In this document: positions 1,167-6,168 of the stretch, one piece after another
How the letters are laid out: each line of letters starts with the position of its first letter
Numbering within the stretch: the stretch's first letter is position 1
Origin: a virus
Virus record (IMG/VR): IMGVR_UViG_3300027754_000384
Location: 1 to 25,789 of that record
Reading direction: 5' to 3' (one strand)
DNA length: 25,789 nt
Position numbers and translations under genes: made by a program
The notes under the pieces: model-generated
Database searches by the model: none
Told to the model about the DNA's origin: nothing
What the model saw: only the letters and a program-made list of their open reading frames with translations

Positions 1167-1644
1167 GATTCAATTGTTTTAATTCCGCAAGCGTTACGGT
1201 TTTTGTATCGCATCGGAAAGTAAAGTTATTATCCATTTCGCCTGCCAGGTGCAAAATAGCATTATTAAAAAAATCTATTTTTGAAATATAGCCATTAATA
1301 AAAACCTTTGAAAAATCATTCATAACATAAATGCAGCAATAAAAATCGCATTGTTGATTATATTGATCGCATGGCAATTTAAATTGGTGCGCTAATCTTG
1401 GGGGATTATTTACGCGAGTTGCTTTAATTTCAATCTTTTTATTGTTCATTAAAAAATCATAATCAAATTGCTGCGCATGAATTATATCTTTTCCAATTGA
1501 CGAAAAGTAATCAAGGAAACATATTTCGGCAATTGCCCCGGCAGCATTGCCATCGCCTTCAGTAAAGGATTTATTTAAAATTCCAAAATCGTAAAGAGTT
1601 TTTGCTCTTTTTAATTGGTTTAAACTTGGAGTTATTGTTATCAT
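1159..1644 (-). CDS. Putative PD-(D/E)XK endonuclease-like protein
   Basis: The 161-residue protein shows a restriction-endonuclease-like layout: GAIAEICFLDYF near residues 36-47 (Glu40 as the helix glutamate), DYDFL near 61-65 (Asp61/Asp63), and KKIEIKA near 69-75 (Glu72 and Lys74). This E...D...ExK pattern is that of PD-(D/E)XK nucleases. I do not recognise a named family. The ATG overlaps the aminotransferase stop as ATGA (1641-1644) and the 3' end overlaps the VRR-NUC gene. It may cut host or branched DNA. Conservation of all three acidic and lysine positions argues that it is active, but its specificity cannot be read from the sequence. Confidence 0.6.
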   Translation of the reverse strand: MITITPSLNQLKRAKTLYDFGILNKSFTEGDGNAAGAIAEICFLDYFSSIGKDIIHAQQFDYDFLMNNKKIEIKATRVNNPPRLAHQFKLPCDQYNQQCDFYCCIYVMNDFSKVFINGYISKIDFFNNAILHLAGEMDNNFTFRCDTKTVTLAELKQLNHE

Positions 1645-2852
1645 GTTGTTTGTTTTTTAATTGAAAAAATTATTACTTGTATTATTGTTTGAATTTGCGC
1701 ATCTGTTAAATCAAAATAAACTGGCAAAGAAATTTCATTTTGATATTTATTCCAGGTTTCCGGATAATTTATTATTTTATAACCGCGCTTTTTATATGCT
1801 GTTAAAATTGGAAGCGGTAAAAAATGAACATTAACCGAAACATTTTGATTGAAGATTTCATCAATTATTTTATCTCTCATTGATTCATCTATTCCTTTTA
1901 TCCTTAATTGATAAAGATGAAAGCTGCTAATTTTATTTTGAGTTGTATGCAATGGAAGCATTGCCCAATCATATTTTGAAAATGCTTTATCATATAAATC
2001 AAATATTTCTTTACGGCGTGTTAAATTTTCTTCGTAGCGTTCCAATTCAACCAAGCCAATTGATGCTTGTAAATCAGTCATATTGCATTTAAAACCGGGA
2101 TGAACAACATCATAACGCCAATTTCCTTTTTGGCTTTTGGATAATGCATCTTTATTTTGGCCATGCAAAATCATTTCGCAAAACTCTTTATAAATTTTAT
2201 CATGATCAAATCTCTTTGGTAAATCAAAACAAAGCGCCCCACCTTCGGCGGTTGTTAAATTTTTAACGGCATGAAATGAAAAGGATGTTATATCGGTTAA
2301 ACTTCCGGCGCGTTTATTATTAGACAAAGCTCCAAAAGAATGAGCGGCATCGCTTATTATTAAAATACGGCCAAGTTGTTTTTGCAAAGATGAACTTGGA
2401 TTGAATTGTTGCTTTATTAATTTCTCTTTAACTAATTTATTTACTGCAATATAATCGCAAGGAAATCCGGCAATATCAACCAGGATAATTGCTTTTGTTC
2501 TTGGCGTTATTGCTTTACGAATTTCATCAATTGAAATATTAAAATCTTCTTGATTAATATCAACCATTATTGGCTTCGCTCCAGAATGAATAATAACATT
2601 TGCGGTTGCGCAATAAGTATATGCCGGCAATATAATCTCATCCCCTTCTTTGATTCCCCAGTAATTCAAAAGAACTTGAACGCCATTAGTCCAGGAATTT
2701 ACGGCAACGGTTGTTTTGCATCCGGTGTATTCCGTTATTTTCTTTTCAAAAAGTTTTGTTTTATGGCCGGTTGTAATCCATTTGCTTTGCAAAGTTTTTA
2801 CAACCTCATCAATAATTTTATCATCAATTCTTGGAATAAAAAAAGGAATCAT
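1641..2852 (-). CDS. DegT/DnrJ/EryC1/StrS-family PLP-dependent sugar aminotransferase
   Basis: The 403-residue protein has the full DegT/DnrJ/EryC1/StrS layout. The N-terminal IPFFIPRIDDKI...SKWITTGHKT is followed by NSWTNG (phosphate contact, near 52-57), LPAYTYCATANVI (75-87), ISDAAHSFGA (Asp168 for the PLP ring nitrogen) and SFHAVKNLTTAEGG (Lys197 as Schiff-base lysine). These enzymes transfer an amino group from glutamate to a nucleotide-linked keto-sugar. A stretch of about 20 residues before ISDAAHS appears to be an insertion relative to the minimal fold. ATGA overlaps on both sides tie the gene to the primase-helicase and nuclease genes. Length and catalytic residues suggest a working enzyme. 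Its sugar substrate, and why a phage carries it among replication genes, are unknown. Confidence 0.88.
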   Translation of the reverse strand: MIPFFIPRIDDKIIDEVVKTLQSKWITTGHKTKLFEKKITEYTGCKTTVAVNSWTNGVQVLLNYWGIKEGDEIILPAYTYCATANVIIHSGAKPIMVDINQEDFNISIDEIRKAITPRTKAIILVDIAGFPCDYIAVNKLVKEKLIKQQFNPSSSLQKQLGRILIISDAAHSFGALSNNKRAGSLTDITSFSFHAVKNLTTAEGGALCFDLPKRFDHDKIYKEFCEMILHGQNKDALSKSQKGNWRYDVVHPGFKCNMTDLQASIGLVELERYEENLTRRKEIFDLYDKAFSKYDWAMLPLHTTQNKISSFHLYQLRIKGIDESMRDKIIDEIFNQNVSVNVHFLPLPILTAYKKRGYKIINYPETWNKYQNEISLPVYFDLTDAQIQTIIQVIIFSIKKQTT

Positions 2853-5251
2853 AAGTTCATTGCTTTAATGGTTAATTCATCCCAAACATCCCCGGCTTTC
2901 GGAGCGTTGAAATTTTCAATTCTAAAATAGCGCCCGGAGCTGTTCCGGCCTTTTGTTAATTTTAATTTATTAAACTTGGCATATTCTCCAACCCACTTCA
3001 AAAATCTTCGCGCTTCAAGATCCTTCCATCCTGCGGTTTCATTCTTAAATAATTCTAAATAAGTATTATTAAATATAAATTCATCAATTTTAATCGGATT
3101 ATCATTCACAAAATCATAAAAATCTTTTGATGTTGCTTGGATGAATCTCTTTGCTTCGGCATTTATTGAAACCGATTTAAGCAATCCATTCTTTAAGAAG
3201 CTTTGCAAGTTGTGAATCATATAATTGTCAAATTTTGACCAGTCAATTTCCGACCATGAATCAAATAATAACCGGCCATAAATATCAAGGGGGCTTCTTT
3301 GCGCGTTAAAGTATTGAAAGAACTCCAGTTCGTGCCTTCTTCGATCATGAGAAGAACCGGCGCCGGCAATAACATAATTGGTTGTTAAAACTATTTTTGG
3401 GGAACGCTCAAATGGAATAAAGATTTCATCCTTATTTTTTCTGTTTACTGTTATGCCTTCGGAAATCAAAGAGAATAAATCTTCAAATACAAAATTTTTC
3501 TTAACATCATCCAGGGCTAAAATTTGAGAATCCAAATTAACTCTTTGATAAACAAAATCGCCTTTCAAGTTGAAAGCTTTGCCATCAATCTTTACAATTT
3601 TTCGAAGGTATCCGAGCGCGGTTAACATCAAGGATTTACCGGAACCGCCGTTTGCATTATCATCAATTTCTTGATCATTAAAGATAATTGCCTTTTGATC
3701 TGTTTTATCTTTAAATGTATGCAATAAATATCCAAGTGTTGTTTCAAGCGAAGCGGTACGGTTCTCATCTTCATTGCTTACTTTATAAACAAGATCCTTG
3801 AAATCATTATCGAAGGAATCAAGCTTCGTAAAATCCCGGCCAATTATTTGATTTTCCCAAATGTATCCATTAACATCAATGTAACTTTGTAAAACAACTT
3901 CTTTCTTTGTTATTTTAGCAACTCCATTTTTAAAGGGGATGAAAGAACAATCAATTGTATCTTGAAGCATCTTCAATGCAATTGAATCAATCATGTTTAA
4001 ATGATTCTCATTGAATAAATAAGTTGATTTTGAACAATAGTTCCAAACCTTGCATTCCCCTTTGCTCAAAAGAAAGGTTAACACAAAATCTTTTATTTGA
4101 TCCGTTGATGATAATCTAACTTTATTTTCTTGAACGCGTACAAAAGTTGGCTTTTCGGCATTTTCCGGGTAATACTTATTGAATCCATTCTTAACCAAAA
4201 ATTCCGAATATTTCATCGGTTCAACGGTTATTGTTTCAACTCCTTTTTTTATTTCTATTTCCCAAAATACATCTTCGGTTGTTGCAAGTTCATCTTTAAC
4301 ATCATTAATTATCGAATCATCAACATTCAATTGTTTCTTTATATCTCTCGGGTTGATTCCTTGCTTTAATTTATTCTTTACTTTAACAACAAGCTCCGTA
4401 TTCTCAAAGTATTTAATTCCTTGGCTTGCTTTTTTGTAAGCGGATTTAACTGTTTGAATTAATTCGCCTTGAGTAAAGCCAGGGGAAACAAATTGATTTT
4501 GCAAATAGTATTCGGCAGCATCTTTGGAAATATTGTATTCACAAAAACAAGCTGCAACCTTAAAAACATATTGGTTCCGGGAACCTTCGGAAAAAGTACA
4601 TCCAAAATCAAACTTCATTATCCGTTCAATTATTTTATTTTCATCATTTAAGATGCAAACCGGGGCTTTATCATAAAAATCAAATCCCTTTTCTTGGTCG
4701 ATTTGAGTAAACTCATCGCAAAATTCATTGATGTAAGCATCTGGATCATAAGATTCAAAGCAAACCCGGGAAACATTGCAACTCGTTGGATCAAAATAAT
4801 CCGAATTAAAGAACTTTTGAAATGCTTGGAACCTTCTTTTGTGTTCATCCTTGGTTGATTTGGGGATTTTAATAACCACTTTCAAACCTTTGCCCCCTGG
4901 CGATGTAAATAATAAATAAACAAAGGGGCAATTTTGTAATTTTTGCCTTTCTTCATTCATTGTTTGTTCATCTGGATAATCATCGAAATCCAAAACACAA
5001 AGCCCGGAATGTTGTATCAATCCATTATCATTGCGCTCATTAAATTGGCCGTTGAACATTATCGCAAGCAACGAATTTTTCAAGTTTCGATGTTGCTCGG
5101 ATGTTTCATCCAATTTTCTCAACCTTTCAATCTTTTTATTTAAATCGGAATACCCATTTTTAATGCGCTCAAACACTTCAAGCACTGTTAATGAATAAGG
5201 AGTTTCTTTTGCGTTAAATAAGCTCTTAAATACGCTAACTTTTGGAATCAT
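2849..5251 (-). CDS. BT4734-like primase fused to SF3/D5-type replicative helicase
   Basis: The 800-residue protein joins several modules. The N terminus has the BT4734/VirE-N-like signature: GLCVLDFDDY near residues 83-92 and TSPGGKGLKVVIKIP near 116-130. Next comes a PriCT-like helical segment, EGSRNQYVFKVAACF (222-236) to TVKSAYKKA (267-275). The C-terminal half is an SF3 helicase with Walker A GGSGKS (535-540), Walker B ILALDDV (577-583), motif C IVLTTNY (620-626) and an Arg-rich SSHDRRRHELEFF (633-645). Such proteins start and unwind DNA in Bacteroidetes phages. The gene starts just after the ATGACGAT array and overlaps the aminotransferase gene as ATGA. This is the main replication enzyme visible in the window. 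Confidence 0.85.
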   Translation of the reverse strand: MIPKVSVFKSLFNAKETPYSLTVLEVFERIKNGYSDLNKKIERLRKLDETSEQHRNLKNSLLAIMFNGQFNERNDNGLIQHSGLCVLDFDDYPDEQTMNEERQKLQNCPFVYLLFTSPGGKGLKVVIKIPKSTKDEHKRRFQAFQKFFNSDYFDPTSCNVSRVCFESYDPDAYINEFCDEFTQIDQEKGFDFYDKAPVCILNDENKIIERIMKFDFGCTFSEGSRNQYVFKVAACFCEYNISKDAAEYYLQNQFVSPGFTQGELIQTVKSAYKKASQGIKYFENTELVVKVKNKLKQGINPRDIKKQLNVDDSIINDVKDELATTEDVFWEIEIKKGVETITVEPMKYSEFLVKNGFNKYYPENAEKPTFVRVQENKVRLSSTDQIKDFVLTFLLSKGECKVWNYCSKSTYLFNENHLNMIDSIALKMLQDTIDCSFIPFKNGVAKITKKEVVLQSYIDVNGYIWENQIIGRDFTKLDSFDNDFKDLVYKVSNEDENRTASLETTLGYLLHTFKDKTDQKAIIFNDQEIDDNANGGSGKSLMLTALGYLRKIVKIDGKAFNLKGDFVYQRVNLDSQILALDDVKKNFVFEDLFSLISEGITVNRKNKDEIFIPFERSPKIVLTTNYVIAGAGSSHDRRRHELEFFQYFNAQRSPLDIYGRLLFDSWSEIDWSKFDNYMIHNLQSFLKNGLLKSVSINAEAKRFIQATSKDFYDFVNDNPIKIDEFIFNNTYLELFKNETAGWKDLEARRFLKWVGEYAKFNKLKLTKGRNSSGRYFRIENFNAPKAGDVWDELTIKAMNL

Positions 5252-5295
5252 AAGTTGTCTGTTTTTTGTATATATGTAAAAAAGGGGCTAAAATC

Positions 5296-5561
5296 ATGAC
5301 AATACATGACGATAATCGGGAAATATTCCACATAAAAAAATTTATCGTCATGGCTGTATCGTAATGCTGTTATGCGATTGCTGAAAGTCATGACGATATG
5401 ACGATAAAATTTCAAAAATTTTGAGTCAATTCCGCACTTTTTAAAAATAAGGGTAACTCTCATATAAATTTTATCGTCATCGTCATGGAATCGGCTACTT
5501 TGCAACAAGCATATGGCTTTAAGGCCATGACGCTATTTTTTTTATCGTCATTCATCGTCAT
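5296..5561 (-). repeat. Array of ATGACGAT repeats: candidate replication origin or operator
   Basis: The 310-bp gap between the primase-helicase start and the stop of the DnaA-like gene holds eight exact copies of ATGACGAT in either orientation (starts 5306, 5344, 5390, 5398, 5473, 5479, 5544, 5554) and two near copies (5296 with ATGACAATA, 5527 with ATGACGCTA). They form three facing groups: forward 5296/5306 with reverse 5344; forward 5390/5398 with reverse 5473/5479; forward 5527 with reverse 5544/5554. Five copies extend to TTATCGTCAT. ATGACGATAAAATTT at 5398-5412 and its exact complement at 5466-5480 make a 15-bp inverted repeat around an AT-rich stretch. An iteron-type origin or a cooperative operator fits; the choice is inference. 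Confidence 0.7.
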
Positions 5562-5921
5562 TCAATAAATGTTTTTATTAATCAAAGTCTTAAGTTTATT
5601 AAGTTCCTTCATATTTTTGCAATCAATTACTCTTTTTTGCAATGGCTTATAATATTTCTCAAAGGGAAATTGTTCGCGAAGCTTCAAAGTGCAATATAAA
5701 TAAAGTTCATCTTGTTGTTTCATCCAATTATTATGGCAAGCAATTCCATGCAATACGCTTGCATGATGCTTGTTAAACATTAATCCAATATGTTGGAACG
5801 GCATCCCCTGGGTACGCAACAAAGCGTAAAGATAATATCTTTGATAAGTTATTGCAAAGTTTCTGTTCGGTAAATCAAGTTCATGTTCTTGAATATACTC
5901 TTTGATTGTATCTAAATTCAT
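5562..5921 (-). CDS. Solitary DnaA domain IV-like DNA-binding protein
   Basis: The 119-residue protein matches the C-terminal DNA-binding domain of DnaA over residues 20-60: an arginine-rich helix NRNFAITYQRYYLYALLRTQG, then a helix-turn-helix MPFQHIGLMFNKHHASVLHGI. The KHHASVLHG segment aligns with the DnaA signature RDHTTVxHA that contacts the DnaA box. There is no AAA+ domain. The rest of the protein is helical and basic, ending KLKTLINKNIY. The gene ends exactly where the ATGACGAT array begins and precedes the primase-helicase, so an origin-binding or autoregulatory role is likely. A one-base gap separates it from the 81-residue upstream gene. The family is well supported; the target site is inferred. 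Confidence 0.68.
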   Translation of the reverse strand: MNLDTIKEYIQEHELDLPNRNFAITYQRYYLYALLRTQGMPFQHIGLMFNKHHASVLHGIACHNNWMKQQDELYLYCTLKLREQFPFEKYYKPLQKRVIDCKNMKELNKLKTLINKNIY

Positions 5922-5922
5922 A

Positions 5923-6168
5923 TTAACTAATTTGTCTTTGTGAAATTATTGTTTTAAATAATTCGGATTCCGCTTCAATCATTCCGGTTGCCTTAATATA
6001 ATCAACTTCAACTTTCGCCGAATTAATTATAACAGAACCAACCATTGCGATGGATTTTGCTTTATCGATTTCATTCTTCAATTGTTCTGGTGTTAATTGA
6101 TCATCATCAATTCTTTCCAATGCTGCGAACATATGATCGCGCAAATCACTTAATTTGTTTCTTGCCAT
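5923..6168 (-). CDS. Small conserved phage protein, unknown function
   Basis: The 81-residue, mostly helical protein begins MARNKLSDLRDHMFAALERI and continues DDDQLTPEQLKNEIDKAKSI. This N terminus resembles a small family I have seen in replication regions of many phages, which has no assigned function. No catalytic motif or membrane segment is visible. Its start lies inside the end of the HNH gene (19-nt overlap), and the DnaA-like gene follows after one base, so the three are probably translated from one message. Confidence 0.7.
   Translation of the reverse strand: MARNKLSDLRDHMFAALERIDDDQLTPEQLKNEIDKAKSIAMVGSVIINSAKVEVDYIKATGMIEAESELFKTIISQRQIS

Follow-up and report, generated by a model that had tools for sequence, protein, structure and literature searches.

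Introduction

In the account given in PMC4234260, the α protein of P4 combines in a single polypeptide a primase, a helicase, and a winged helix that binds the repeats of the origin, the primase being of the Toprim type. SaPI Rep and SCCmec Cch2 are described as self-loading initiator helicases that recognize adjacent iterons, Rep by means of its C-terminal domain and Cch2 in a manner that requires direct repeats (PMC7581432). For PolpTN2 and PrimQH, AEP primases of mobile elements, a succession of primase, PriCT-1, and C-terminal winged helix has been reported, with origin recognition as the proposed role of the winged helix; most PrimQH proteins also have an ATPase, and the BT4734-like primases are listed in the same source as a family unassigned to any clade, apparently with no origin described for it (PMC5862659). 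In E. coli DnaA, recognition of the 3' part of the DnaA box falls to the helix starting at residue 434 and that of its 5' part to Arg399; the T435M and R399A proteins are reported to be defective, T435M in its binding to the box (PMC5742627). A DnaA-like replication initiator, with no mention of an array, is named in the announcement of the genome of Bacillus phage Pony (PMC3853050). A module comprising a solitary DnaA domain IV, a repeat array, and a primase-helicase was not found in a search of open PMC papers, subscription literature lying outside its scope.

The window analyzed here is the entire record of a virus of bacteria, which is 25,789 bases long and perhaps represents only a fragment of the genome. 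Its repeat array (positions 5252–5561) resembles the system described for P4 α in that array and primase travel together in the phage family and in that the model of the primase-helicase C-terminus is a winged helix, for which the P4 domain ranked second by Z score, tied with other structures. It differs from that system in having a BT4734-like primase domain of the archaeo-eukaryotic type followed by PriCT_1 instead of a Toprim primase, and in the location of the array directly upstream from the primase gene, with the gene of a DnaA domain IV-like protein preceding. In the SaPI Rep and Cch2 systems, as described, the helicase gene precedes the origin and a separate protein serves as primase, whereas in the record a single protein combines primase with helicase and its gene follows the array. 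The order of primase, PriCT-1, and modeled C-terminal winged helix is the one described for PolpTN2 and PrimQH. By analogy, the best reading is that the array-primase unit would work in the manner of P4 α or SaPI Rep, the difference being its BT4734-like primase domain.

Results

Repeat array

The sequence TTATCGTCA occurs five times in the record, at positions 5307–5315 (minus strand), 5342–5350 (plus), 5399–5407 (minus), 5471–5479 (plus), and 5542–5550 (plus), and nowhere else. Direct comparison with the DnaA box, TTATCCACA, revealed identity at 7 of 9 positions. The DnaA box itself is absent from the record, and the 13 copies of it with one mismatch all lie outside the array.

The fuller repeat unit is ATCGTCAT. 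Eight exact copies are present, all of them inside a 310-base intergenic gap (5252–5561) and none elsewhere in the whole record, together with three further copies in the gap that have one mismatch. When the gap was shuffled 1,000 times (first order), the most frequent 8-mer was counted at most four times, versus eight for ATCGTCAT. The exact copies are located at 5306–5313 (minus strand) and 5344–5351 (plus), at 5390–5397 and 5398–5405 (both minus, forming a head-to-tail pair), at 5473–5480 and 5479–5486 (both plus, with a 2-base overlap), and at 5544–5551 and 5554–5561 (both plus), the last one abutting the stop codon of the DnaA-like gene. Positions 5352–5389 (minus strand) form a spacer between boxes, which by eye and without a statistic occupies the same place as a spacer recurring in relatives. 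The gap separates the genes of the DnaA-like protein (5562–5921) and of the primase-helicase (2849–5251), both on the minus strand. GC skew did not switch at the array and was uninformative.

The solitary DnaA domain IV-like protein

The gene at 5562–5921 (minus strand) encodes a 119-residue protein that matches only the C-terminal domain of DnaA, the AAA+ part being absent. The match to Pfam Bac_DnaA_C (PF08299; E-value of 8.1e-5, 23 bits) was under the curated cut-off of 31.5, as was that of a relative, L064 (31.3 bits). A match to the same profile with an E-value of at most 0.01 was present in 33 of 35 aligned relatives, and a profile of the family retrieved chains of DnaA domain IV from the PDB, the best of which was 3pvp (E-value of 3.9e-4). 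The AlphaFold2 model of the protein (pLDDT of 89.8) aligned with DnaA domain IV 1j1v over 86 residues (Z score of 9.9, 3.0 Å) and with 3pvp (Z score of 9.8). Foldseek returned no match to the model at an E-value of at most 0.001, 3pvp being a weak match (E-value of 1.8, probability of 0.82). A phmmer search of the protein against the PDB gave nothing useful, and tblastn against named phages gave no match.

With E. coli numbering placed by hand on the alignment, the equivalents of R407 and H434 are invariant (35/35), the R399 position holds R or K in 32 of the 35 sequences, and T435 is T in one sequence and A or S in the other 34. The protein is thus a divergent relative of DnaA domain IV lacking AAA+, which by the curated rule is not a Pfam member. 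Its likeness to DnaA lies in the fold and in the conserved R407 and H434 equivalents; it differs by the missing AAA+, by the replacement of T435, and by the fact that the repeats nearby do not follow the protein, as detailed below. The initial annotation had described a gene encoding a DnaA-IV-like domain alone, next to five boxes agreeing with the DnaA box at 7 of 9 positions. These claims were upheld, including by structure prediction of the protein, and the boxes proved to be confined to the array.

Two observations concern neighboring or related coding sequences. In L217 (positions 1267–1833, minus strand), a DnaA-IV domain is fused to a DUF4406/nucleoside deoxyribosyltransferase-like domain in a protein of 188 residues. 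In the record, positions 5923–6168 (minus strand) encode an 81-residue protein assigned to phrog_2044, which is found near the DnaA-IV gene in several relatives; the label of this group, RNA polymerase beta subunit, looks doubtful given the small size of the protein.

The primase-helicase

The gene at 2849–5251 (minus strand) encodes an 800-residue primase-helicase (phrog_28855, E-value of 5e-150). No Toprim-type primase domain was found in the protein. Instead, Pfam identified a BT4734-like N-terminal primase domain at residues 57–173 (4733–5083, minus strand; E-value of 3.2e-19, 69.8 bits for a curated cut-off of 22.4) and a PriCT_1 domain at residues 222–274 (4430–4588, minus strand; E-value of 1.1e-6, above the Pfam cut-off). 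The N-terminus also matched the NCBIfam CRISPR-associated primase-polymerase type B family (E-value of 1.3e-19), far under the cut-off of that family.

Residues 655–800 (146 residues) were modeled with a pLDDT of 82.2, revealing a winged helix at residues ~691–780 (2912–3181, minus strand), the proposed origin-binding domain. Among 1,000 re-aligned chains, the P4 origin-binding domain 1ka8 ranked second (Z score of 6.2, 2.5 Å, 70 residues), a score tied with those of unrelated winged helices (7rmw, Z score of 6.6; 1p4a, Z score of 6.1). The likeness of this model to 1ka8 is suggestive only. Foldseek gave no match to the C-terminal model at an E-value of at most 0.001, and phmmer of the protein against the PDB gave nothing useful.

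Comparison of three clades separated the two ends of the protein. Over the 200 N-terminal residues, the group of the record was closer to a clade with different boxes than to a clade with the same box (66.6 versus 61.3%), whereas over residues 740–776, which comprise the C-terminal helix, it was closer to the same-box clade (61.2 versus 41.9%). Identity between clades at the C-terminus of the primase appears to track the box better than identity at the N-terminus.

The extreme C-terminus varies in the family. Eight of the 22 aligned primase-helicases (for example those of L044, L174, L191, and L209) end in -PF, after a tail that is often acidic, an ending reminiscent of the C-terminal tip of SSB. 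The protein of the record has a tail of the DxWDEL type and not -PF.

Arrays and neighboring genes in relatives

A search of IMG/VR with the primase yielded 141 relatives, 80 of which were retrieved. Upstream genes could be counted for 61 of these 80 loci and for the record, the others having no primase start or no upstream sequence. A DnaA-IV-like gene was located upstream in 57 of the 62 loci, the remaining five having less than 500 bases of upstream sequence. This frequency suggests some link of the DnaA-IV gene to the array-primase module. The majority of the 62 loci also have a repeat array before the primase, the array sequence varying between clades (ATCGTCAT, ATCGTCAC, GTTACAAA with GTCGCG-type boxes, or GTTGTCAC). 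A scan with a second primase type identified 79 loci, of which 67 were taken to upstream inspection (two of these being too short), and added the boxes GGTACACA, GGGGCAGA, AGGGCACA, AGTACACA, and CGCAACAC. Box registers are uncertain between clades, and the three locus searches, performed with the primase, the DnaA-IV protein of L064 (see below), and the second primase type, overlap in contigs. The DnaA-IV gene and the array are neighbors in most relatives.

By eye, a recurring layout was detected in the arrays: a pair of head-to-tail boxes follows an AT-rich stretch, and a spacer of about 40 bases separates this pair from inverted and further boxes. The spacer often contains AATACCA and TATAG (AATACCA..TA.AG). 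In 31 gaps from two array groups (16 and 15 loci), the only 7- and 8-mers common to at least 85% of both groups were A-tracts; 6-mers such as CTTATA were also common to both. The gaps contained no TTWTNCACA site, and in the 31 loci this motif was not enriched (45 occurrences versus 30 to 46 in five shuffles).

The association of the three elements is not universal. L209, L210, and L211 have an array and a primase and no adjacent upstream DnaA-IV gene, a weak DnaA-IV-like gene being located downstream in L209 (E-value of 5.6e-5). In ten loci of the wider family (L174, L176–L178, L180–L183, L185, and L197), no clear array was detected in the 450 bases upstream from the primase, and the 3 kb upstream contained no DnaA-IV gene; among six of these searched over their whole records, only that of L181 has a DnaA-IV domain, farther off. 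Array and primase are thus not inseparable. In the named phages matched by the primase (L091–L094, at most 37% identical), no comparable array was seen at the places inspected, the 8-mers counted at least three times being mostly A-rich (GCCGAAAA and ACGCCCGA each occurred three times in 1.5 kb of L093). A scan of genome contigs identified four relatives, the best being 53% identical, in Pedobacter sp. L105 (locus L219). No DnaA-IV gene was found in the 12.3-kb locus, and the long frames of the whole genome gave weak matches only. The L219 primase lies inside a bacterial contig of 365 kb, probably in a prophage, and points to hosts of the Sphingobacteriaceae type.

Other elements were found between array and primase in certain relatives. 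Seven loci (L017, L023, L037, L038, L044, L052, and L085) harbor, between the array and the primase start, a conserved pseudoknot-like element that is absent from the record; by eye, CCGAGTA-like and GAAAGG-like strands form two stems that interleave, and the element ends in a T-run. This element is a candidate cis-acting RNA or attenuator. No Rfam match with an E-value of at most 1 was obtained for the record, L017, L044, or L085. In L105, L117, L136, L100, and L086, genes that appear by eye to be of the HNH type are inserted between array and primase, the array staying beside the DnaA-IV gene.

The array follows the primase-helicase and not the DnaA-IV protein

A search with the DnaA-IV protein of a single relative, L064, identified 43 loci, 42 of which were compared following exclusion of L137 (partial). 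Primase sequence was present in 38 of the 42 loci. In 18 of these, the primase is 56–64% identical to that of the record and the boxes are of the CGTCAC type; in the other 20, the primase is 31–35% identical and the boxes are AGGTACACA. Array type and primase type agreed in all 38 loci in which both could be read, the typing words CGTCA and TGTAC having been picked after the arrays had been read. The DnaA-IV proteins of the two array groups are intermixed, with a best cross-group identity of 89–98% for each of the 20 proteins of the second group, and the only alignment column that distinguishes the groups is the last residue, located at the array start. DnaA-IV proteins that are identical over residues 1–120 were found beside unrelated arrays in two instances (L136 versus L133 and L134; L120 versus L124). 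On a DnaA-IV tree built from residues 1–120 with 41 typed loci (L123, which is short, was skipped), array type changed 12 times, six of the changes being forced by starred branches; shuffling gave a mean of 13.6 changes, and 112 of 500 shuffles were as low.

The reverse case was observed in a clade with primases 78% identical to that of the record. Here, pairs of loci with primases 95–98% identical have DnaA-IV proteins that are only 38–39% identical and differ in the residues of the helix (KHHAT or VHHSS versus LSHST). The boxes were ATCGTCAC in all ten loci compared, which are those with a complete primase among 11 named. The boxes do not follow the DnaA-type protein in evolution, since identical proteins occur with different arrays and diverged proteins with the same array. 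With swaps in both directions and full agreement of array and primase, the assertion of the initial annotation that the DnaA-IV protein reads these boxes is not supported. As the array follows the primase, the 7/9 agreement of its box with the DnaA box is best taken as a coincidence.

The limits of the exchanged segment were determined by blastn of 11 genome pairs with different arrays, which were chosen for the closeness of their DnaA-IV proteins, some genomes belonging to more than one pair. In all 11 pairs, homology spans the upstream genes and nearly all of the DnaA-IV gene, breaks off within the last few to 20 bases of the latter, and is absent over the array. What is left inside the primase amounts to patches of 64–67% identity and matches of 38–45 nucleotides. 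In the nine pairs with sequence beyond, homology restarts at the last 42–49 nucleotides of the primase gene and continues at 88–94% identity. The cassette thus starts at the extreme 3' limit of the DnaA-IV gene, which remains outside, and consists of the array and the primase-helicase gene. HNH-type genes inserted in some loci aside, the primase-helicase is the only protein encoded in the cassette, which makes it the prime candidate for the array reader. Together, these comparisons indicate that the array sequence and the primase-helicase gene are inherited and exchanged as one unit, with the DnaA-IV gene outside.

Discussion

The repeats are likely the recognition array of the adjacent primase-helicase, and as such most likely the iteron-type replication origin of the phage, the DnaA-IV protein being a separately evolving accessory neighbor. 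According to the mechanism that we propose, the primase-helicase would bind the boxes, probably through its C-terminal winged helix. It would assemble on the head-to-tail and inverted boxes, melt the adjoining AT-rich stretch, and then load itself, following which its BT4734-like domain would prime DNA synthesis. Since the array is just upstream from the primase gene, binding of the primase-helicase may control that gene as well. The solitary DnaA-IV protein would function alongside any array-primase cassette that it is found with, its probable place of action being a different site or the host. Its target could possibly be the host or a common feature of the origins such as the spacer.

One form of this last possibility is that both proteins bind the origin, the primase-helicase reading the variable boxes and the DnaA-IV protein serving as a loading or architectural factor on a feature common to the origins, such as an A-tract or the spacer. 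The position of the DnaA-IV gene upstream from the array in 57 of 62 loci and the recurrence, by eye, of the spacer between loci with different boxes are consistent with such co-binding. We consider it rather unlikely, as the two array groups have no 7- or 8-mer in common at the 85% level besides A-tracts, TTWTNCACA sites are absent from their 31 gaps, and the arrays of L209–L211 lack an upstream DnaA-IV gene. Alternatively, the DnaA-IV protein might be a phage weapon or switch directed against host initiation, cut loose from DnaA and selected to bind the host oriC or DnaA-regulated sites, with initiation of phage replication depending on a separate, exchangeable array-primase cassette. Such a role, which is speculative and on balance improbable, would explain the constancy of the protein when the phage origin is replaced wholesale.

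The array could also be an operator through which transcription of the primase gene is controlled by the primase-helicase itself or by a regulator from host or phage, the origin being located elsewhere. The array is indeed directly upstream from the primase gene on the same strand, and in relatives a sequence like TAnnTTTG, a Bacteroidetes promoter element, adjoins its downstream end. An operator is nonetheless quite unlikely: the eight boxes, with pairs that are head to tail or inverted, the spacer that recurs, and the AT-rich stretches are closer to an iteron origin, and the sole gene common to all exchanged cassettes encodes a replication protein. Finally, an initiator role of altered specificity for the solitary DnaA-IV protein, with TTATCGTCA as its box, would fit the fold, the conserved R407, H434, and R399 positions, the adjoining gene in most relatives, and the 7/9 agreement, but is very improbable in view of the proteins identical over residues 1–120 beside unrelated arrays, the diverged proteins beside the same array, and the omission of the DnaA-IV gene from the exchanged cassette.

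The reading of the repeats as the recognition array of the primase-helicase retains one part of the self-contained initiation system put forward in the initial annotation: array and primase-helicase, being co-exchanged, look like such a module, but the DnaA-IV protein, which is outside the cassette, does not look like its initiator. The locus also carries a caution, as the nearest DNA-binding protein need not be the reader of an array. Matched and swapped origin-initiator pairs occur naturally in this virus family, in which each box (ATCGTCAT, ATCGTCAC, GTTACAAA/GTCGCG, GTTGTCAC, GGTACACA, GGGGCAGA, AGGGCACA, AGTACACA, and CGCAACAC) comes with its own primase-helicase C-terminus. Such pairs would allow one to work out how an initiator primase recognizes its origin by means of a winged helix, and they offer candidate orthogonal phage origins.
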